Positions 19,827 to 30,422 of a stretch of DNA of 64,000 nt are shown here, piece after piece (position 1 is the first letter of the stretch; each line of letters starts with the position of its first letter). Below the pieces are notes generated by a model. That model ran no database searches, had not been told where the DNA came from, and worked only from the letters and a program-made list of their open reading frames with translations. Position numbers and translations under genes: made by a program. Source of the DNA: Campylobacterales bacterium (lineage in GTDB: Bacteria; Campylobacterota; Campylobacteria; Campylobacterales; Sulfurovaceae). The stretch covers positions 1-64,000 of the forward strand of contig JACXUM010000001.1 of NCBI GenBank assembly GCA_014763895.1. Reading direction: 5' to 3'.

Positions 19827-20360
19827 TCAATAAAGACCGAATTTTCCGTCGGCTCTTTTGTACATGACGCGCATATTCCCTTCCTGGTCATTGAAAACGA
19901 TGAACTGTCTTTTCTTCTCTGCTTTAAGTGCATCGATCGCTTCATCAAATTCAAGCGGTTTGTGCAGTTCAAGATCCATCGGTATGATCTCCACTTCTTC
20001 AGCTGTGAGTTCCCCGACTGCTTCTGCTCCTTCTCCAAGGTCTCTAAAGCTCATGATCTTATGGTCTTTGACCTTATCGGCGTATCTTCTAAGCGATTTT
20101 TTTACTCTTTCGATCGCAAGATCGATCGCGGCATACACATCTTTGTCCATTTGGGTCACGACGATCGTATTCTTATCTTTCAGGTTTAAAATGAATTCTA
20201 CGGCAAATCCTTTTTTCCCGTTCTTTTCGTTTGCTGCAATCACGGTATTTGCCGAGATAATATCCAGATTGTATTTATTCAAACCATCAATCGCTGCAGC
20301 AGCATAGTCTTTGATTGGTTCTGTTAGTTCAAAATGTCTTCCTGTGATACTTGTATTCAT
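19827..20360 (-). CDS. hpf: ribosome hibernation promoting factor, long form
   Basis: The 177-residue protein has an N-terminal S30AE/HPF domain (about 1-100) with basic residues for 30S binding, and the C-terminal dimerisation domain of long HPF (LEFDEAIDALKAEKKRQFIVF). Long HPF alone converts 70S ribosomes to 100S dimers in stationary phase. A perfect 10-bp inverted repeat lies 24 nt upstream of its start and may control expression. It is followed by a strong hairpin shared with recG. Confidence 0.92.
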   Translation of the reverse strand: MNTSITGRHFELTEPIKDYAAAAIDGLNKYNLDIISANTVIAANEKNGKKGFAVEFILNLKDKNTIVVTQMDKDVYAAIDLAIERVKKSLRRYADKVKDHKIMSFRDLGEGAEAVGELTAEEVEIIPMDLELHKPLEFDEAIDALKAEKKRQFIVFNDQEGNMRVMYKRADGKFGLY

Positions 20361-20465: not shown

Positions 20466-21164
20466 TTATGATTCGGGCTGATTGCTAATATAGGCATAGC
20501 CGGTTTCCGGTTCGACATTGATGGAAAATGTATCGCCATCAGACATTGTAAAGGTGAAGGTACATCGCTGTGTCATATAGGAAGCGCTGTTTGGCTGGGC
20601 TGAATTCGAAAATCCTGCATGAGGCCTGCCAAGATGGTCAAAACCGATATGTCCGGCCCCACATCCACCGGTGTTGGTGACAGTTTGTATACCGTAATTT
20701 TTAGTGATAAATATTCTGTCACTTACGGATGTATTGGTATCATTGTCACTTGCACATGGTTTTGTATTTTCCCAAAACATACGTTTTCCATTACTTGGAT
20801 CGACCGCCGCTTCATCGTATTCAAAAAAAGCATTAGTGGAACTATCCATATCATCATCGGTACCTATCATATAGTACCTGCCAGTCCCATCGCTACAACT
20901 GCTAAAGACAATTCTCCAAAAGCGTTGTTGCCATTTAGGATTATCAAATTGATGTTTGTCATCTATTAGTGCGAGATGTTGGGTATAACGGATGTCTGAT
21001 AGGATACTGTCAGCTGCCTCTTGTCTGATATCTCTTTCAATCCTGGTGAGCACCATGGATGCAAGTATGCCCAATACAATGATGACAAATATAAGCTCCA
21101 GCATGGTAAAAGCAGATTTTGTTTTATGATATACGTGAAAATGTAAATAAGGTACTTGTTTCAT
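20466..21164 (-). CDS. type IV pilin-like pseudopilin (last of the operon)
   Basis: The 232-residue protein has a class III signal: a basic leader ending KSA, then FTMLELIFVIIVLGILASMVL with glutamate at +5, the N-terminal helix that packs in pilus or type II secretion filaments. Ala rather than Gly precedes the expected cleavage site. The mature domain contains several cysteines and ends in a beta-rich part (TFTMSDGDTFSINVEPETGYAYI), like GspH-type minor pseudopilins. It follows the previous gene by 10 bp and is the last of five co-oriented genes. Confidence 0.8.
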   Translation of the reverse strand: MKQVPYLHFHVYHKTKSAFTMLELIFVIIVLGILASMVLTRIERDIRQEAADSILSDIRYTQHLALIDDKHQFDNPKWQQRFWRIVFSSCSDGTGRYYMIGTDDDMDSSTNAFFEYDEAAVDPSNGKRMFWENTKPCASDNDTNTSVSDRIFITKNYGIQTVTNTGGCGAGHIGFDHLGRPHAGFSNSAQPNSASYMTQRCTFTFTMSDGDTFSINVEPETGYAYISNQPES

Positions 21165-21174
21165 TTTAAATCTC

Positions 21175-21654
21175 TTAAATTTTTTGTAGGGTTCTTTTAT
21201 GATATGTTATCCATGGTGCTTGTGCACTATTTGGATGATCCGGCTCTTTGTACTCCACATAGACATCTACGATGATACTGAGCGGTGACTTGATCGTTGT
21301 CACACTGTTACTCAATACTCTTGTTGCAGCACAGGATGCCACTTGTGTATTTTGTCCGATATAGGCGATGCGTGCACGAATACGATATCCTCCATTGAGT
21401 GGATCCCCAATCGTACCATCAATATCACGTAAACAGTTGCTACTGACTCTGTCGTTTGCAGTAACTGCCAATATGGCATATTCAGTATAGCTTTTGGCAT
21501 AGAGCTCAGCTTGCTCTCTTTGATACTGAGCCGTGGTCTCTTTAACCAACTTTCCTGAAAGGCTCATGATAAACATGGCAACTGTAGACATCAAAATAAC
21601 CACGATAATCGCAGTCAGCAGAGAAAAAGCTTTTCGAAATGAGTGATGTTTCAT
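21175..21654 (-). CDS. pseudopilin-like protein without Glu5
   Basis: From the ATG at 21654 the protein is 159 residues. It begins MKHHSFRKAFSLLTAIIVVILM, a prepilin-type leader and helix, but position +5 is threonine instead of the usual glutamate. GspK/PilX-type tip subunits are also known to depart from Glu5, so this may be the tip-initiating subunit. I prefer this start over an in-frame ATG at 21678 because it overlaps the upstream stop by one base (TGATG) and has AGGCGG before it. Confidence 0.72.
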   Translation of the reverse strand: MKHHSFRKAFSLLTAIIVVILMSTVAMFIMSLSGKLVKETTAQYQREQAELYAKSYTEYAILAVTANDRVSSNCLRDIDGTIGDPLNGGYRIRARIAYIGQNTQVASCAATRVLSNSVTTIKSPLSIIVDVYVEYKEPDHPNSAQAPWITYHKRTLQKI

Positions 21655-22475
21655 CAGAATACCGCCTTTTCTTTGCAAGAGGTTATAGTGGAACCTTCGC
21701 CTATCTCTTCATCCCTGCAAATCTTGAAACGAATGGTGCGGCCTGACCCCTGGAATTTAAAATTGGTAACGTTTTTCAGAAGTAACGATTTCGTGTTGCC
21801 AATCGTTGCACTCAGTGTCGGATCAAAGTTGTAGTATAGATAAAGATCGCCGCTTTCTACTACCAAAGCATAGGAAGTCCATGATAATTTATAATGTTCT
21901 ACAATCCTGCTCGTATTCGTATCCAAAGTGATCGTTTCGCCGCTTACTGAGTTGATGCCGTAAGAAGCTATATCCTCAGGGAAATAGATTTGGGCATTGC
22001 CGATGTTTTTTGTTGATCCGGATAGCTTGGCGATGATGGTATTTGCCAGATCAAGATTTGAACCGGATGAGACCAAGGTACTTGATGTGCTTGCATTGAT
22101 GTCACAAAAACCGCTCCAGCCCGGTCTCCGGTCTGTTGATGAAGCGATCGCTTCGAATCCATCCCCATCATATCCTACCCACTGCAAAACAGAATAATCA
22201 TCAGGGTTAAAATTCATAGAAGAAGCTAATAACTCAGGAGTACCGGTTTTTCCTACTCGCCGAATAACTGTATCGGGAATTGCATAACGTAGACGATTAG
22301 CAATCTGTGTTGCAATAAGTTCTGTTTTAATCGAGGCACGATGCTGGGCGCGCTGTAAAATATAGCTATCATAAATATTTGCTATCAGTTCCGCACTTAG
22401 TGAACCAACAATCCCTAGCACGATAATAACAAATATCAATTCGATCATTGAAAAAGCGGATCTTTTGAGTTTCAT
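21654..22475 (-). CDS. type IV pilin-like minor pseudopilin
   Basis: The 273-residue protein starts MKLKRSAFSMIELIFVIIVLGIVGSLSAE, a prepilin leader with Ala at -1 and glutamate at +5. After the helix, AQHRASIKTELIATQIANRLRYAIP resembles the helical stem of GspJ-type minor pseudopilins, and the rest is beta-rich with a few cysteines. It overlaps the next gene by one base and starts 3 bp after the preceding one. It is most likely part of a periplasmic fibre tip. Confidence 0.78.
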   Translation of the reverse strand: MKLKRSAFSMIELIFVIIVLGIVGSLSAELIANIYDSYILQRAQHRASIKTELIATQIANRLRYAIPDTVIRRVGKTGTPELLASSMNFNPDDYSVLQWVGYDGDGFEAIASSTDRRPGWSGFCDINASTSSTLVSSGSNLDLANTIIAKLSGSTKNIGNAQIYFPEDIASYGINSVSGETITLDTNTSRIVEHYKLSWTSYALVVESGDLYLYYNFDPTLSATIGNTKSLLLKNVTNFKFQGSGRTIRFKICRDEEIGEGSTITSCKEKAVF

Positions 22476-22478
22476 CTG

Positions 22479-23174
22479 TTAAAATCTCCTCTCTTCAAGC
22501 ATAGTGCCGCCGATATTACTACTAAAGGCGTGTAATATAATTGTTTTATTCAGCTCATCTGTACCGCTTGTGCTGGTCAATGTAACTTGAATATGTTTGA
22601 TATTGGTAGTACCTCCGGCATTCGCCCATGATGGGCTGAACGTAATATCGGTTCCTTGATAACCGCCCGCTACCGTATCGTTGATATAGTTGACAGTAGT
22701 TGCGATATTGATAGTCGTCCGTTCTGCATAATCACTGTGATTTGTAACGTTCTCAGCAAGCCATAAGTGCCAACTTCCGATAAAATCGTCCATATCATCC
22801 GAATCATTTGAGTCGCTTCCTAACACTGAGGCAACAAAGCGTTGACTATCATCACGTACGAATGAACGCTTACTCTCTTGCGGAGTTCCTATCCTTCGCC
22901 CTGTATTGTTAAACTCATTAAGATTGCTATCTCCTGCTATAACGCTTAGGATCGGATCAATATATCTCTCATCGGTATCATTTTCATCCCAATGGTATCC
23001 CAATACCATATTTGTCTGGGATGCGGCCTCGTTGATGCCTTCCTGTTGGATCGCGACAAATCCGCTTTCTGTTGCCTGTTGCAGCAGCATTGGAACCGGA
23101 AGGAGTACGATACCCATCACCATGATCGCAAAAATCAGCTCTATCATTCCAATGGCAGGACGTAAAGTTTTCAT
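22479..23174 (-). CDS. type IV pilin-like minor pseudopilin
   Basis: The 231-residue protein begins MKTLRPAIGMIELIFAIMVMGIVLLPVP. With cleavage after PA the mature chain has glutamate at +5, in register with the neighbouring pseudopilins. If cleavage followed the Gly instead, Glu would be at +3, which is not the usual register. The mature domain is acidic and threonine-rich. It starts 4 bp after the large MshQ-like gene, so it is certainly co-transcribed with it. Confidence 0.75.
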   Translation of the reverse strand: MKTLRPAIGMIELIFAIMVMGIVLLPVPMLLQQATESGFVAIQQEGINEAASQTNMVLGYHWDENDTDERYIDPILSVIAGDSNLNEFNNTGRRIGTPQESKRSFVRDDSQRFVASVLGSDSNDSDDMDDFIGSWHLWLAENVTNHSDYAERTTINIATTVNYINDTVAGGYQGTDITFSPSWANAGGTTNIKHIQVTLTSTSGTDELNKTIILHAFSSNIGGTMLEERRF

Positions 23175-23178
23175 TTGC

Positions 23179-26100
23179 TTACCACCCCAATCGTTTATTT
23201 TTTTTGGTACTGGAGTTTGTCTCTACAACATGTCCTGTATCTCCATATCCTGCCCATCCAGATTGACCGACAAACCGGACTTTATAGAACGGTATAGGAT
23301 CTGACACAGAACTGTCAGGATTATAGATCAGCCATTTTCCGGTAGTCAGATCCGTAGTGGTATCAAGATCGATCCCTACAGTTAGCGGTAATGTAGGATT
23401 TGTACCTCTTGAAACAATGATCGAATTATCGATTCCGTTATTGACTCCATCAGGTTGGATGCTTAGTAATTTAGGATTCACATCCCAATCACCGCTACCT
23501 CCTTCATACGGTGGATTATGTTTTGCCAATGTTACATTTCCATCGTTTGCTGATGTGTTATGATCAAGTGCGAGCCACCAGTCAAATTCGCTGATTTGAG
23601 CATCAACGGTATTGATGCCAAATCCACCACATTGTGTAAAGCCGAGATCACAATAGATGTTAATTGCAACCGGTGTATTGATACTCTCTGTTGTGACATC
23701 CGGATAGAAGAACTGAGACGGCCGTGCTCTTCCATAGTAGAATGTCGCATTCCCTTCTGCATTGAGCTGTTGACAATTCGAATCCATACCGCAATTTGTG
23801 TAAATCGTTGTATTGAAGTCTCCGGCACGGCTACCGTTGATATCGGCGGTATCTCCATCTGCTGGGTCGATATAATGAGAGACCATCAGGATATACAAAT
23901 TCGAACCAGTCACAATAAATGGATTGCCCGGTCTGTTTCTATCTCTTTGGAAGTTGTATTCTAGAGGATATGTCGGTTCATTCCATAAAATTTTCCGTGT
24001 TCCGTTTTCTTCATTAAAGCCGGCACGTCCAAATCCGATCATTTGATTACTAATATTTGACTCATTCGCATCAGGGTAAAAGTATCCATTTGTTTGTCCG
24101 CTTCCAGGGACCTCAACCGTTGGTATCACAGAAACATTGTTTTCGTAATACAATAACCCCTCTCTAAAGTTTTGGGTAATATTGCCATCCCTGTTTTCTG
24201 CCTTCATATGTGTCTGAATTTTGGCTGACATGAGGTTTCGTTCATTGGCAATATAGGTAAATGTACCATCAGGACCGCCAAAGTTGGTAATGTTGAGTTC
24301 TGCAACTTCAAAATGATGCGGGATAAATGTGACATTTTTATCCCCACAGATATAGGTATGGTTTGTACTGTTGCAGTCCATCGGTGTATCATCATTGTCT
24401 ATAGCTGCCCAGTTCTTATCATAGATATGCAACCCGATCAATCCGACATCATCATAAGAAACGTTGATGATCTCCTGAGCAGTTCCTGGCCATGATGTCG
24501 TCAAACTTGATATTCCCTGAACCATATAGGCAGTTGTGGAATTATTGACCTCTGATGTCCCATGCAATGCATTGTTCAAATCTTGTGAACCATCTCTAAA
24601 GTATTTTGTTATGTTAATATCCAAATCGCTATTGAAGTTATGATCAACGACCGTATAACTGGTTGATATATTGTTAAGAGCATCCAATGCGGTCAATGAT
24701 GCACCATACTCCTCAGCGGCTCGAAGAAGGTTTGGAGCATCTGGATGTGACATGCCGGTATCAAATTTCTCTGGACGAATGGCAAAATTGTCGGTGGAAC
24801 AAGCTGGCTGGATATTGAATGTACACATATAGCAACCCAGTTCATTATCATAAAGAGGGTTGTACCCTGGACAACCGGTATTACCTACTCCACAGCTGTA
24901 TCCGTGATTGGAGGATAGGCAAGGGTTTCCATTTCCCAACCCACAACGGTCCCATGCATCCTGACCAAAAGCAGTTTTATACTGTACCTCAGAGTTGACA
25001 CATTGTGCAAGTCGGGCAAAGTTACCCGTTGTACTACTGTTTGCAAGGCATCGCTGTCCTTCCACACTCAAAGTGTTTGGATCGATGAAGATCATCTGGA
25101 TTCGCGCATTTTTTCTTACGGTATCAGAAACAAGCATTGTACCCTGAGCAGAATAGGCACCGCTTGGAATATCGATGACTAGTTGTTGGTTTGTAGCGGG
25201 GTCAAGAATGTTTTCAAATTGCATACTACAGGTATTATCGGTCAGATAAGGCGTGATTGAATAAGGGATCGAAGCATTATTTACGGCCCCTTCATATAGA
25301 TAAATTGTAGGTACTCCTGCCAAATCCAAATGGACACCGACAATATTTCTATTATCAGAAGTGATCATCGTCTGTATGTATTTGATATGGTTGTTCTGGT
25401 TGGAGGTGTCAGTACTTGCTACGTAATTAGCCGCATCTGCCGCATTGTTGATAGGGGTATCAATGACATCGGCTGAAGATACAACTTCTATCCCGCCTTC
25501 TCCCGTACCGTTACAGTCGTAGATCCTTCCTTTATGGTGAAATCCTAGCAATGTCCAGTAATCTCCGAACATTGCGATCCCATCGATTCGAGGATTTTTA
25601 TCTGTATCGGTGTCATTGAGTATAATATTGAGATTGTTCACCAGTGCTTGATTGATATCAACGGCATATCCTTCGGTATAGGAACCATAATCTGTGGTAT
25701 TGGTAATATCGCTACAATTCCCCGATAAATTACCTCCCCCAAGGCCGGAACTGGTTGATGAGTAGGTACATGATCCGCTGCTTGTATCGGGAGCATACAT
25801 CTTATATACTTTGATACTGGATAATATGTCAGTTGCATTCACCTCTCTGACCAGTACAGAAGCTGAACAGCCGTTACCGTAATGAAAGTTTCCTTTTATT
25901 TCACATTGACTCGTATTTGATGGCAATGTCATATCTGTGGTATCAAGATAGCACAAGTCTTTAGCATTATCGACTTCATTGGTTATGGTAGTTATCGCTA
26001 TAGCTGTGTTATTAAGCGGATTAATGTCGATTGCACTACTGGAAACCACTGCTGTATTGGTAAGGAGTCCTGGCCCTCCTAGTGGGTTTCCGGTAGTTGA

Positions 26101-26949
26101 TGGAGCTTGGACATGCAGGTTGATGGTAGATAGAGCGCCTTTATTTAAGTTACCCGTATGTGTACAAGTAACAGTATTGCTTATTTGTATACAGCCCCAG
26201 TCGGGTGAACCTGTATTGGTGGCATTGATGTCAACATTCATACCTGAAGGTAATGTATCTGTTACCACAACGTTGCTGGCATTCGTTTCCCCTATGTTAT
26301 AGACATTGACCGTATAGATAAAAGGATCATAGATAAGAACTGTCCCTACGTTGCTGGTTTTTGTGATCTTGAGATCCGTTCCTGGCGTTGGTATATTAGG
26401 AGTAAAGCGTGCATCAATACGGTAATCGGTAGACGGGTTGTTACTGCCACCTTCCACATAGAGGTAGTATCTTCCGGCCAATGTGGAAGAAATGGTTAAT
26501 GTTATGCTATTGCCATGTGTTAGTGTGCCAGTTGTTACAGCCGGACATAGTAGAATCAGATTGGAGTACCTCAAACTTTTGTTGTTATGGGTATTGGTTA
26601 TCGTGACATTGAGTTCCCCATTTAATGGAACATCAAAGTAATAATAGTCTCTATCCCCACTACTGCTTGATCCTATCTCATAACCACTATAAAGACCACC
26701 TGTCAAAATATCGTTTGCCTGCAAACAAGAATTATTTGGTTCATCCTCTGCATACGAATTGACTTGGAACAACACAAAAATAGTTGTAAATACAAATAAA
26801 AATCTCTTATAGTTTTGAGATTTTTTTTTGATTTGTTGAATAAAGTTTTTTAGTATTCCAAACATCATCATGGATATAGACAGATAACAATTATAAATTA
26901 AATTTACATTCTTCATTTTTAACCCTTTTATAACTCTTCCTTTTTTCAT
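23179..26949 (-). CDS. large MshQ-like secreted protein (PPC-like, DUF11-like, DUF6701-like regions)
   Basis: The 1256-residue protein has a long cytoplasmic lead of about 45 residues and then a signal sequence RFLFVFTTIFVLFQVNSYAE. Next come a pre-peptidase-like beta domain (about 70-190, EDEPNNSC...DYYYFDVPL), a DUF11-type repeat (about 195-325, VYNIGETNASNVVVTDTLPSG), a cysteine-rich middle, and a C-terminal half (about 720-1240) resembling the DUF6701 region of MSHA pilus protein MshQ. It heads the pseudopilin operon, so I infer an adhesin or tip protein presented by the pilin-like fibre. The true start may be M12 (26916), which has AAGGG before it. The domain calls are by eye. Confidence 0.65.
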   Translation of the reverse strand: MKKGRVIKGLKMKNVNLIYNCYLSISMMMFGILKNFIQQIKKKSQNYKRFLFVFTTIFVLFQVNSYAEDEPNNSCLQANDILTGGLYSGYEIGSSSSGDRDYYYFDVPLNGELNVTITNTHNNKSLRYSNLILLCPAVTTGTLTHGNSITLTISSTLAGRYYLYVEGGSNNPSTDYRIDARFTPNIPTPGTDLKITKTSNVGTVLIYDPFIYTVNVYNIGETNASNVVVTDTLPSGMNVDINATNTGSPDWGCIQISNTVTCTHTGNLNKGALSTINLHVQAPSTTGNPLGGPGLLTNTAVVSSSAIDINPLNNTAIAITTITNEVDNAKDLCYLDTTDMTLPSNTSQCEIKGNFHYGNGCSASVLVREVNATDILSSIKVYKMYAPDTSSGSCTYSSTSSGLGGGNLSGNCSDITNTTDYGSYTEGYAVDINQALVNNLNIILNDTDTDKNPRIDGIAMFGDYWTLLGFHHKGRIYDCNGTGEGGIEVVSSADVIDTPINNAADAANYVASTDTSNQNNHIKYIQTMITSDNRNIVGVHLDLAGVPTIYLYEGAVNNASIPYSITPYLTDNTCSMQFENILDPATNQQLVIDIPSGAYSAQGTMLVSDTVRKNARIQMIFIDPNTLSVEGQRCLANSSTTGNFARLAQCVNSEVQYKTAFGQDAWDRCGLGNGNPCLSSNHGYSCGVGNTGCPGYNPLYDNELGCYMCTFNIQPACSTDNFAIRPEKFDTGMSHPDAPNLLRAAEEYGASLTALDALNNISTSYTVVDHNFNSDLDINITKYFRDGSQDLNNALHGTSEVNNSTTAYMVQGISSLTTSWPGTAQEIINVSYDDVGLIGLHIYDKNWAAIDNDDTPMDCNSTNHTYICGDKNVTFIPHHFEVAELNITNFGGPDGTFTYIANERNLMSAKIQTHMKAENRDGNITQNFREGLLYYENNVSVIPTVEVPGSGQTNGYFYPDANESNISNQMIGFGRAGFNEENGTRKILWNEPTYPLEYNFQRDRNRPGNPFIVTGSNLYILMVSHYIDPADGDTADINGSRAGDFNTTIYTNCGMDSNCQQLNAEGNATFYYGRARPSQFFYPDVTTESINTPVAINIYCDLGFTQCGGFGINTVDAQISEFDWWLALDHNTSANDGNVTLAKHNPPYEGGSGDWDVNPKLLSIQPDGVNNGIDNSIIVSRGTNPTLPLTVGIDLDTTTDLTTGKWLIYNPDSSVSDPIPFYKVRFVGQSGWAGYGDTGHVVETNSSTKKNKRLGW

Positions 26950-26968
26950 AATCTCTCTACTTAACTAT

Positions 26969-26974
26969 ATTATA
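26969..26974 (-). promoter_or_regulatory. -10 box of the MshQ-like/pseudopilin operon
   Basis: TATAAT on the minus strand lies 20 bp before the first ATG. It sits inside an 8-bp inverted repeat (AACTATAT, 6-nt spacer, ATATAGTT; 26963-26984), a possible operator, though such AT-rich repeats arise easily. Confidence 0.5.
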
Positions 26975-27165: not shown

Positions 27166-27819
27166 ATGTTGAAAAGTATAAAATATAGCATGATTGGTAC
27201 AGCCGTTTTGCTCTTATTTGTCGGGTGTGCCAAAGATGATGATACGGTCAAAGAGTTTAATAAGCCGGCGCTTTATTGGTATCAACATATCGGAAGCAGT
27301 ATCAGCGATAAAAACCTGGACAAGGCTGATGCCTATTATATATCATTGAAAAGCGAACATATGCATTCGCCTTTGATGCCTACGGCCAATCTGATGCTTG
27401 CCTATGCCCATATGGATAATGAAGAGTATCTTTTGGCCGATTATTACCTCGATGAGTATAACAAACGTTTTGGTGATGCAGGCAATAAAGAGTATATCGA
27501 CTTCATCAAACTGAAAGCCTCTTTTTTGGGTATCAAAGATGTCTACAAAGATCAGAAATTGATCATGGACAGTATCGAAAAAGCAAAGAAATACCAATAT
27601 CGTTATCCGGGGTCTACTTATTTGCCTTTGGTTAACAATATGCTTATAAGATTGCACATGAGTCAATATCTTCTCAATGAAAATATCGCGGCATTGTATG
27701 AAAGAACAGGAAAAGAAAATGCAGCAAAGATTTATAGGGAGAAAAATAATGATTCGATCATCCAGATGACCGATATCACACCTCCACAAAAAGGTATTGT
27801 CGGTGAGATTTTTGATTGA
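27166..27819 (+). CDS. bamD: outer membrane assembly lipoprotein BamD
   Basis: The 217-residue lipoprotein is a core partner of BamA in outer-membrane protein insertion. The lipobox LFVGC puts the lipidated cysteine at residue 21. The mature part is made of TPR-like helical repeats, including MPTANLMLAYAHMDNEEYLLADYYLDEYNKRF and the C-terminal NENIAALYERTGKENAAKIY, both typical of BamD. It is monocistronic and diverges from the MshQ-like gene. An AT-rich hairpin with a T-tract follows it. Confidence 0.9.
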   Translation: MLKSIKYSMIGTAVLLLFVGCAKDDDTVKEFNKPALYWYQHIGSSISDKNLDKADAYYISLKSEHMHSPLMPTANLMLAYAHMDNEEYLLADYYLDEYNKRFGDAGNKEYIDFIKLKASFLGIKDVYKDQKLIMDSIEKAKKYQYRYPGSTYLPLVNNMLIRLHMSQYLLNENIAALYERTGKENAAKIYREKNNDSIIQMTDITPPQKGIVGEIFD

Positions 27820-28001: not shown

Positions 28002-30422
28002 ATGATGCAGTTAAGTGATTACGATGCATTTCCTACCGTTTTGCCGATTGTGGTAGAAGACGAACTTTTTTTATATCCTTTTATGATCAGCCCGATTTTT
28101 TTAAACAATCAAAAAGATATCGATGCGGCAACCGATGCGATGGAAAACAACTCTTTATTGTTTGTGACCTCGTCCATTAGCGGGAAAGAAGGAAGCAGGG
28201 ATTTTGATGCGATGTACAAGGTGGGGGTAGTGGGCTCCATCATGCGCAAGGTCCATCTGCCTGATGGGAGAGTTAAAATCCTTTTCCAGGGACTTTCCAG
28301 AGGGGCGATACTCAATCCCGAAGAAGGTCCTTTCAACAAAGGGCGTATCGATATTGTAAAGGCTGAACCGTACGAAAAGCTCAAAGTTGATGCGCTCATG
28401 GATGTTCTGCGTGACAAGGTTAAGCAGGTCTCTACCCTGAGCAGCCGTTTTCCGGCTGATCTGGTACGTACAATAGAGGAAAATGATGAGCCAAGCCGTA
28501 TCGCCGACCTGGTCTCATCGATGTTGAAGCTGGATAAAGAGACCGCATATGCACTTTATATCGAGACCAATGTAGAAAAACGTCTGCTTGGTCTGATCGA
28601 TGTGGTGAGTTCTGAGATAGAATCAGCCAAAGTACAGCGAGAGATCCGCTCCAAGGTCCATACGAAGATAGAGCAGACCAATAAAGAGTATTTCCTCAGG
28701 GAGCAGCTCAAAGAAATCCAGCGTGAATTGGGTGTAGATACACAGCGCGAAGAGGAGATCGCCCGTTTTAAAGAGAAGGTCGAATCGATCAAACCGTATT
28801 TGGATGAGAGCGCATATAAAGAGATCAGCAAACAGCTTGAGCGTTTTGCAAGAATGCATCCTGAAAGCGCTGATGCCAATGTGCTTCAAAGCTATCTTGA
28901 ATGGGTACTCGAAGTTCCGTTTGGGCAGTTAAGTAAAAAAAATATGAGCGTTGCAGAGGTTTCCAAGGAGCTGGATAAGGACCATTACTCTTTGGAGAAA
29001 CCTAAAGAGAGGATTTTGGAGTTCTTCTCGGTTCGGGAGTTGGCGATGTTAAGAGGGATCAAGCAGCAGGATACAGACGGTGCTATCCTCTGTTTTGCAG
29101 GACCTCCTGGAGTAGGGAAAACCTCACTGGCAAATTCCATTGCTACTGCATTGGGAAGACCACTGGTGCGTATAGCGCTTGGAGGCTTGGAGGATGTCAA
29201 TGAACTCAGAGGACATCGAAGAACCTATGTGGGGGCAATGCCGGGACGTTTGGTCCAGGGACTCATTGAAGCCAAAAGCATGGATCCGGTAATTGTCCTT
29301 GACGAGATCGATAAAGTAGGCAGAAGCATGAGAGGCGATCCGACTGCTGCTTTGCTTGAGATCCTTGATCCTGAACAAAACAGCAAATACAGGGATTATT
29401 ACCTCAATTTCAATATCGATTTAAGCAAAGCGATTTTTATTGCTACTGCCAATGATGTAGGGAGAATTCCTGCACCGCTTCGCGACAGGATGGAGTTTAT
29501 CGGACTGAATTCATATACGCCAAAAGAGAAGTTCGAGATCTCGAAGCGTTATCTGATCCCTCAGGAGCTCAAAAAACATGCCTTGAAACGTCGAGAGGTA
29601 TATATCAGCGAGAAAGCGTTGAAAGCATTGATCGATGAGTATACCAGGGAAGCAGGAGTTAGAAATCTCAGAAGAAAGATTGCCGGATTGATGCGTAAAG
29701 CGGCACGTAAACTATTGGAAGATAAAACGATTGATTTGGTAAATATCACCAAAAAGAATTTGAAACAATTTACGGACAAAAAAGTTTTTGAGATTTCACC
29801 GGTTGATGGACAGCCTCAGGTTGGTGTGGTGAATGGCCTGGCATGGACGGCGGTTGGTGGAGATGTCTTGACCATTGAAGCGATCAAAATTAAAGGAAAA
29901 GGCGGATTGCAGCTTACAGGAAGCCTGGGGGATGTTATGAAAGAGTCTGCGCGTATTGCACACTCCGTGGTCAAGATATTGATAGATCAAGGGAAGTTAC
30001 CGATCTCCCAAAATGAGATCCCTCGTTCGCAACAAGAGTACGAAGAGCAGTTGGATGTAAGTGAAGTTTATAAACGTTATGATCTGCATGTACACGTTCC
30101 TGAAGGTGCTACGCCAAAAGACGGTCCGAGTGCCGGAATTGCAATGGTAAGCGTAATTGCTTCTATTTTAAGCGGCAAGAAGATCAACAATAAGGTGGCA
30201 ATGACGGGCGAGGTCACTTTGACAGGAAAGGTCCTGCCGATAGGAGGGCTTAAAGAGAAATTGATCGCCGCATACAAAGCCGGTGTGACCAAAGCACTTA
30301 TTCCCGTAAAAAATTATGAACGTGATTTGGAGGATATTCCGAATGAAGTGAAAGAACATGTCCGTATCGTAGCGGTCGCAAATGTAGAAGAAGTGTTACA
30401 AGAGGTTTTTGCAGCAAATTAA
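28002..30422 (+). CDS. lon: ATP-dependent protease Lon
   Basis: The 806-residue protease degrades misfolded and regulatory proteins. It has the N-terminal substrate domain, a long coiled-coil linker (about 190-290), Walker A GPPGVGKT at 367-374, and the Ser-Lys protease with S710 in DGPSAGIAM and the lysine in GGLKEKL. The first ATG (28002) and the next codon are both Met; AAGGA lies just upstream. It is the only gene in its transcript and has a repeat-flanked promoter. Confidence 0.96.
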   Translation: MMQLSDYDAFPTVLPIVVEDELFLYPFMISPIFLNNQKDIDAATDAMENNSLLFVTSSISGKEGSRDFDAMYKVGVVGSIMRKVHLPDGRVKILFQGLSRGAILNPEEGPFNKGRIDIVKAEPYEKLKVDALMDVLRDKVKQVSTLSSRFPADLVRTIEENDEPSRIADLVSSMLKLDKETAYALYIETNVEKRLLGLIDVVSSEIESAKVQREIRSKVHTKIEQTNKEYFLREQLKEIQRELGVDTQREEEIARFKEKVESIKPYLDESAYKEISKQLERFARMHPESADANVLQSYLEWVLEVPFGQLSKKNMSVAEVSKELDKDHYSLEKPKERILEFFSVRELAMLRGIKQQDTDGAILCFAGPPGVGKTSLANSIATALGRPLVRIALGGLEDVNELRGHRRTYVGAMPGRLVQGLIEAKSMDPVIVLDEIDKVGRSMRGDPTAALLEILDPEQNSKYRDYYLNFNIDLSKAIFIATANDVGRIPAPLRDRMEFIGLNSYTPKEKFEISKRYLIPQELKKHALKRREVYISEKALKALIDEYTREAGVRNLRRKIAGLMRKAARKLLEDKTIDLVNITKKNLKQFTDKKVFEISPVDGQPQVGVVNGLAWTAVGGDVLTIEAIKIKGKGGLQLTGSLGDVMKESARIAHSVVKILIDQGKLPISQNEIPRSQQEYEEQLDVSEVYKRYDLHVHVPEGATPKDGPSAGIAMVSVIASILSGKKINNKVAMTGEVTLTGKVLPIGGLKEKLIAAYKAGVTKALIPVKNYERDLEDIPNEVKEHVRIVAVANVEEVLQEVFAAN

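Follow-up and report, generated by a model that had tools for sequence, protein, structure and literature searches.

The operon studied here lies in a stretch of 64,000 nucleotides from a genome of the family Sulfurovaceae, Campylobacterota (positions 1 to 64,000 of contig JACXUM010000001.1, assembly GCA_014763895.1; hereafter, the window), and encodes, with a probability that we put at about 0.88, the minor-pilin and adhesin (tip) module of a type IV pilus of the mannose-sensitive haemagglutinin (MSHA) type. Five open reading frames (ORFs) follow each other in tight series on the minus strand (20466-26974), the first coding for a large secreted protein, Q, and the others for the prepilin-like proteins P1–P4 (Table 1). 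The gaps between them are 4, 3, -1, and 10 bp; both this layout and the length of Q, 1256 residues, agree with an earlier reading made from the sequence only. Sequence comparison provides the families of Q and of the secretin MshL, the best matches of P1–P3, the linkage to msh genes, the retention of the module in genomes lacking the secretin of the type II secretion system (T2SS), and the replacement of the module as a block; from these we infer the position at the tip, priming, adhesion, and the role of the N-terminal part of Q (the head) in deciding what is bound.

The module is conserved among relatives. Matches to Q are found in 79 of 150 genomes, and stretches around the genes were fetched for 40 loci chosen by the Q match and for 20 further loci chosen by P2. 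Q–P1–P2–P3 are contiguous in 38 of the 40 Q-chosen loci, more than expected by chance, which bears out the co-occurrence that the sequence-only reading had anticipated; in the two exceptions the contig ends inside P2 (L037) or no P1 is called (L071). Of these 40 loci, 29 have P4 after P3, 5 have it upstream of Q in divergent orientation, and 6 show no P4. Among the P2-chosen loci, Q lies upstream in 17, 16 of them with P3. The scan of named genomes gives 22 loci, each from a record with Sulfurovum or other Campylobacterota in its title. An extra copy or piece of Q is present in 6 of the 60 loci. L039, L047, L053, L054, and L145 have one or two additional Q genes next to the operon, and in L053 a second P1–P2–P3 set is present as well. 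Such extra genes are possible alternative tips for one machine.

The machine served by the operon is indicated by its neighbors in other genomes. In relatives from other families the cassette genes adjoin mshI-J-K-L-M-N: Q–P1–P2–P3–P4 run straight into MshI-J-K-L-M-N-E on one strand in G179 (L099), and P1–P4 run into I-J-K-L-M-N in G154 (L101), with a Q two genes upstream. Within the family of the window, P1–P4 of G029 (L139) precede I-, J-, E-, and G-like genes and stand behind a 1619-residue ORF that is not recognized by the Q profile; the accessory msh genes in these three loci are named by position. The cluster of G029 (L139:4523-17254) is a second, more divergent pilus cluster in this family, with no secretin gene called beside it; a strong MshL match of the same genome is on another contig.

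The phylogenetic profile was built for the same 75 genomes throughout, each at least 95% complete. P2 (E < 1e-15) is present in 69 of them, strong MshL in 70 (not counting two fragments located at the ends of contigs), and the T2SS secretin GspD in 63. Strong MshL accompanies P2 in 67 of 69 genomes, and P2 is kept in 11 of the 12 genomes without GspD, seven of these 12 belonging to one genus, so that they do not represent 12 independent losses. Linkage, the profile, and the orthology of P1–P3 (below) therefore indicate an MSHA-type pilus.

An alternative would be that P1–P4 form a T2SS pseudopilus and that Q is a secreted substrate of the T2SS. A T2SS-like cluster is indeed present in the genome, P3 weakly matches GspK and P4 weakly matches GspG/GspH, P2 has a GspJ-class fold, and in one genome (G004) the cassette is beside T2SS genes. 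However, the T2SS cluster has five pseudopilin-type genes of its own, with quite different evolution (see below), the cassette adjoins msh genes in other families, and P2 persists where GspD is missing; given this co-occurrence and the control divergence of the T2SS pseudopilins, we reject this assignment as very improbable. The sequences thus point to the MSHA-type pilus, not the T2SS, as the machine served, although the genome has both.

The machinery itself is found elsewhere in the genome of the window (1.77 Mb in 47 contigs, listed as 99.84% complete), as the sequence-only reading had supposed. Contig C7 carries an MSHA-like assembly cluster, and the 20 kb read there contain no called prepilin-type gene. 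Its secretin passes the NCBI equivalog model MshL (TIGR02519; 252.5 bits, cut-off 250.2), its ATPase matches T2SSE (442.7 bits) and the MshEN domain (67.6 bits), and the adjacent platform gene matches T2SSF (174 bits); the names MshE and MshG are given by neighborhood. MshM has an AAA match, and the putative MshI, J, K, M, and N genes are of an order and size that would fit the msh accessory genes. Contig C45 has the T2SS-like cluster, whose five pseudopilin-type genes are named from their order, size, and N-termini. Three more short ATPases of PilT size are present, and the single prepilin peptidase found is on the same contig as the window, 16 kb beyond the end of the window. Contig C47 has tandem prepilin genes beside a PriA-like gene (read from sequence); the best solved relative of one of these prepilins is MshA 9lab (E 3.7e-6, N-terminal helix only). 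The earlier remark that the 64 kb hold no assembly ATPase, secretin, or prepilin peptidase gene is confirmed: profile searches of the genome give no PF00437 or PF01478 match inside the window (no window-wide GspF search was made), and its secretin matches fall on C7 and C45 only. The structural and assembly genes are thus on separate contigs, and their union in a single locus is not taken here as defining for MSHA. The msh genes of Vibrio cholerae are also described as two operons, mshI-F for assembly and mshB-Q for structure (PMC4624765), hence it is nothing unusual in MSHA for the structural operon to lack assembly genes.

The sequence-only reading called all four small proteins prepilin-type, and they are indeed prepilin-like. 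A prepilin N-terminus with E5 is recognized by pattern in P1, P2, and P4; P2 and P4 match N_methyl at about its cut-off; P1 has no family match; and P3 has the hydrophobic helix and lacks E5, as does GspK. Among five MSHA pilins of Aeromonas caviae tested, the profile of P1 places MshD first (31.0 bits), that of P2 MshO (26.1 bits), and that of P3 MshP (23.0 bits); the bit scores are modest, and the three genes follow the same D-O-P order as the Aeromonas MSHA cluster. The match of P3 to GspK (22.6 bits) is far below the cut-off, and P2–P4 show weak matches to Com minor pilin models. The AlphaFold model of P2 (mean predicted local distance difference test score, pLDDT, 88.9) is of the GspJ class: the ten top entries, with Z 9.5–11.9 before a drop to 5.8, are GspJ-type pseudopilins or the pilin-like TTHA1219. 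Searching solved structures by profile gives nothing relevant for P3 and only weak helix matches for P1.

Among the domains reported earlier for Q, DUF11 is above its cut-off in the Pfam scan of the full-length protein (60.6 bits), whereas PPC stays below (19.8 bits, cut-off 25.9). The MshQ/DUF6701-like C-terminal half proposed in that reading is seen as profile similarity above the cut-off of 27: DUF6701 (PF20419) scores 39.6 bits over residues 718–1133 when residues 701–1256 (the base) are scanned alone, and 37.0 bits in the genome search; it is not reported when full-length Q is scanned. DUF6701 is tied to MshQ by a Vibrio msh cluster in which a fragment bearing the DUF6701 name lies downstream of mshP, at the mshQ position. 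A PilY1-type adhesin identity was considered for Q and rejected: the Neisseria_PilC domain (PF05567) is not among the Pfam matches of either the full-length protein (E up to 1) or the C-terminal part (E up to 10). The signal-like hydrophobic stretch of Q is at approximately residues 48–68, and the five longest matches in relatives start at residues 42–51, so the true start of Q may be downstream of the first ATG. DUF6701 proteins are also seen in another family without pilin neighbors (L097, L100, L103, and L098:6561-16623 of G188, the latter with three tandem copies).

All 30 aligned Q bases (alignment A1, with fragmentary and more distant copies left out) have Trp (W) as the last residue, the end pattern being basic-x-hydrophobic-x-W (23179-23184 in the window); alignment A3, preselected for proteins ending in W, is no evidence on that residue. 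The DUF6701 proteins of other families end in W in seven of nine cases, and in FR in the remaining two. In two relatives linked to the msh machine, VFR or IFR stands at the C-terminus in place of W. The model of the Q base (mean pLDDT 74.6, predicted template modeling score 0.70) looks like a string of Ig-like domains, which would fit a stalk and does not show function. Its best solved match by VIA-align is the FdeC adhesin (Z 9.7, root-mean-square deviation 6.0 over 295 residues); Foldseek with the same model gives no usable match, and a profile search of the base against solved structures gives nothing relevant. The C-terminal tail (residues 1239–1256), although conserved, is predicted with low confidence in this model and might be a partner-binding tail.

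Several observations weigh against the assignment. DUF6701 is matched at E 0.001 by only 11 of 30 Q bases, and the C-terminal profile score of Q with the Vibrio MshQ piece, 4.4 bits, is not significant, as shuffled sequences score up to 7.5; a C-terminal signature common to the two, read by eye as W-L-x-Y-N plus a basic-hydrophobic end, is not claimed. L143 and L144 have P1–P3 without Q beside them. P2 occurs without MshL in G084 and G048, drafts of 270 and 310 contigs, and MshL occurs without P2 in G006 and G049. On C7, MshI, J, and K have no Pfam or NCBIfam match and MshN has a TPR-like match only, so that all four are named by position. The C47 prepilins are only candidates for the major pilins. 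The P4 profile scores 41.4 bits with MshA and 37.1 bits with MshC, mostly over the common helix, and does not distinguish between the two. Finally, the pilus, its tip, and adhesion are predictions from sequence.

Comparison of close relatives gives well-supported evidence that all five genes between bamD and hpf, and not the head alone, are replaced as a block. In genomes G122 and G142, the left flanks match over 3,943 bp (97.6% identity) and the right flanks over 8,123 bp (98.2%). The left match stops approximately 300 bp before the start of Q, near the start of bamD, and the right one sets in at the stop codon of P4. In the intervening DNA, alignment is confined to stretches of 193 and 233 bp with about 71% identity. 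The identity of P1–P4 is 40.0, 44.6, 41.6, and 45.8%, respectively, and that of the Q bases is 27.5%, while the control, the five T2SS pseudopilins, is 95.7–100% identical. Flanks and cassettes were compared for 46 of 61 loci. Flank identity is 89% or more in 11 locus pairs, of which ten have a cassette alignable by megablast over 0–32% and one (L040–L041) over its full length; ten of the pairs are drawn from five genomes of one clade, the eleventh being L048–L067, and the pairs have genomes in common, hence they are not independent.

Trees were constructed for 23 loci with all four proteins, from 26 picked by hand. Lon places G122 and G142 0.007 apart, while the P1–P3 trees place the set of G122 with those of the window and G079. 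Approximately unbiased (AU) tests on the cassette reject the Lon grouping (p 3.1e-4 for the pair, 1.6e-5 for the five genomes), and the test on Lon rejects the cassette grouping (p 1.4e-62); as the groups were named after inspecting identities, these values are indicative only. The apparent exchange could also be an artefact of assembly or binning, or fast change in place: several genomes are metagenome assemblies, and the close pairs overlap. We give this explanation hardly any credence, since both flanks of G122 and G142 continue for kilobases on contigs of 444 and 623 kb, the breaks fall at the cassette edges, other comparisons involve a genome in one 2.19 Mb contig, and the trees conflict; moreover, change in place to 40–46% beside 98% flanks is implausible with T2SS pseudopilins at 96–100%.

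The msh machine of G122 and G142 is nearly identical in MshM (99.6%), MshE (99.5%), MshI (98.6%), MshJ (98.2%), MshK (97.9%), and MshG (95.7%); MshL is at 88.6% and MshN at 74.3%. In MshL (L153:7242-8876, L156:6533-8185), much of the difference falls in one block of 40 columns that is 35% identical, and the others are at 80–100%, with one at 70%; diversifying selection on a loop exposed at the surface may account for the divergent block. In MshN (L153:5713-6447, L156:5001-5738), the variable part is the N-terminal half. The region of the major-pilin candidates beside priA differs in gene number between G142 (L178:5057-17779) and G122 (L177). In G142, approximately 10 kb of genes resembling, by eye, glycosyltransferases and ABC exporters are seen between the pilin genes.

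The heads vary much more than the bases. Among 231 pairs of 22 Q proteins, the bases match in all 231 at E 1e-5 and the heads in only 94. The heads of nine relatives contain varied mixes of DUF11, Big_9, cadherin-like, CUB, He_PIG, Calx-beta, PPC, and F5/8 type C domains, or nothing recognized. Heads were further compared for 58 Q proteins ending in W and having their own P2. Here, the head of the window's Q has no BLAST match with its three nearest relatives by P2 (70, 70, and 67% identity), and aligns over 94–95% with two genomes whose P2 identity is only 40–41%. With Lon as the clock, for the 33 of these proteins with Lon in the same stretch, a head conflict is seen in 16.

We favor, with moderate confidence, the interpretation that the MSHA tip of Sulfurovaceae is a plug-in allele: the whole Q–P1–P2–P3–P4 cassette would be swapped by recombination in the bamD/lon and hpf flanks, replacing surface specificity or phage sensitivity in one step and leaving the motor unchanged, with the other outward-facing parts (the MshL patch, MshN, and the major pilins) changing in parallel. 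The exchange is the well-supported part; the drivers (substrate, host, or phage) and the co-fitting are proposals. In this interpretation, the adhesin and the four pilins would travel together because they have to fit each other.

A tip or priming complex is the most likely product, judging from family, fold, linkage, and the likeness to PilY1 systems. P1–P4 would be inserted in the inner membrane and cut by the one prepilin peptidase found; they would then join the base of Q and prime assembly, after which MshE and the platform protein MshG would add major pilins beneath the complex. The pilus would exit via MshL with the head of Q outermost, and the head would bind a surface until a PilT-type ATPase pulls the pilus back. 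The earlier suggestion of a surface fibre tip or pseudopilus with a large adhesin was thus largely right, with the machine specified as MSHA-type rather than T2SS, and the adhesin and tip roles suggested by family and fold. As an alternative, the operon could serve DNA uptake as a competence pseudopilus, with Q as a DNA-binding or sensory tip; the weak matches of P2–P4 to Com minor pilin models agree with this, and minor pilins of other type IV pili are described as binding DNA (PMC12040237). We consider it unlikely, as a large secreted Q with adhesin-type domains and changing heads fits surface binding better, although both roles can coexist.

The closest known system is the MSHA pilus of Vibrio and Aeromonas (mshB-A-C-D-O-P-Q), which similarly has a DUF6701 protein and D-O-P minor pilins in order, an MshL secretin, an MshEN ATPase, and separate operons for structure and assembly (PMC4624765). 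There, C comes first and Q last, while here Q is first and the C-like pilin last; also, the operon described here is far from the machine and the major-pilin candidates, and its cassette is exchanged between close relatives. MshQ is described as a putative MSHA adhesin, whose loss lowers surface display of MSHA, retraction being still possible (PMC7096442). The T2SS set GspH-I-J-K shares the GspJ-class fold of P2; however, a separate T2SS pseudopilin set is present in the genome and conserved where the cassette differs. In Myxococcus xanthus, PilY1 and minor pilins are reported to form a priming and tip complex of the type IVa pilus, likewise with one large protein and four minor pilins (PMC7541494); in contrast to that complex, no PilC domain is reported in Q, and the tip complex here is a prediction.

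Exchange of a tip cassette is known from Acinetobacter baumannii, where ComC/PilY1 and minor pilins (FimU, PilV) are described as replaced jointly, as one recombination block, while the flanking genes are not, and where the adhesin also has a variable N-terminal and a conserved C-terminal half (PMC10374093). The adhesin there has a PilC domain, as opposed to DUF6701 here, and the account gives seven genes and at least two exchanges, compared with five genes and unlike cassettes in 10 of 11 close pairs here (PMC10374093). The share of close pairs with unlike cassettes is thus much higher in our set. What is new is the MSHA/MshQ case in Sulfurovaceae, with a DUF6701-type tip and in another phylum, which carries the idea of an exchangeable tip over to another adhesin family and to a lineage of environmental bacteria. 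In the open-access literature searched (one library), no mention of DUF6701 and nothing on MSHA together with type IV pili and Sulfurimonas was found; papers on Sulfurovum with MSHA concern, by title and abstract, other subjects only, and no MSHA case of pilus-tip gene exchange is seen by title or abstract.

MSHA-type pili, best known from Vibrio and Aeromonas, thereby gain a well-supported relative in sulfur-oxidizing Campylobacterota, and the pilin operon without a machine is explained. Closely related genomes with sharply unlike tip cassettes form natural sets for asking which of the tip proteins depend on a mutual fit and what is determined by the head, e.g., adherence to sulfur, minerals, or hosts, or evasion of phages. 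An mshL-annotated gene of Sulfurovum indicum is reported to be up on elemental sulfur (PMC10045233); attachment to sulfur is therefore one possible use, as a lead only.

The flanks of the cassette are conserved, with a bamD-like gene on the left and an hpf-like gene on the right (Table 1). The single promoter proposed in the sequence-only reading did not gain much: the best minus-strand candidate upstream of Q matches 9 of 12 positions, and the 22 promoter-like sites there are no excess over shuffled sequence (24.1, standard deviation 5.7).

Table 1. Coordinates of the cassette and its flanking genes in the window.
Feature	Coordinates	Strand	Description
Q	23179..26949	-	1256 aa, secreted, MshQ/DUF6701-like
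Q head, residues 1-700	24850..26949	-	Signal-like segment, PPC-like and DUF11 domains; varies and is replaced between relatives
Q base, residues 701-1256	23182..24849	-	DUF6701 region and conserved C-terminal part with final W
P1	22479..23174	-	231 aa, prepilin-like, MshD-like
P2	21654..22475	-	273 aa, prepilin-like, MshO-like, GspJ-class fold
P3	21175..21654 (from own ATG)	-	159 aa, prepilin-like without E5, MshP/GspK-like
P4	20466..21164	-	232 aa, prepilin-like, GspH/MshC type, not resolved from MshA
bamD-like gene	27166..27819	+	Left flank of cassette, conserved; YfiO 46.1 bits
lon	at 28002		Next after the bamD-like gene
hpf-like gene (S30AE family)	19827..20360	-	Right flank of cassette, conserved; Ribosomal_S30AE 65.5 bits

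The msh regions of Vibrio taketomensis and Legionella adelaidensis were fetched; the Vibrio record is broken up and is no help with orthology. A real MSHA cluster was also sought in a plasmid collection, where NZ_AP026896.1, a 4.9 Mb Aeromonas caviae record with a plasmid label, contains an msh cluster and has the look of a chromosome; an ORF resembling a transposase is seen at the downstream end of its mshQ region.

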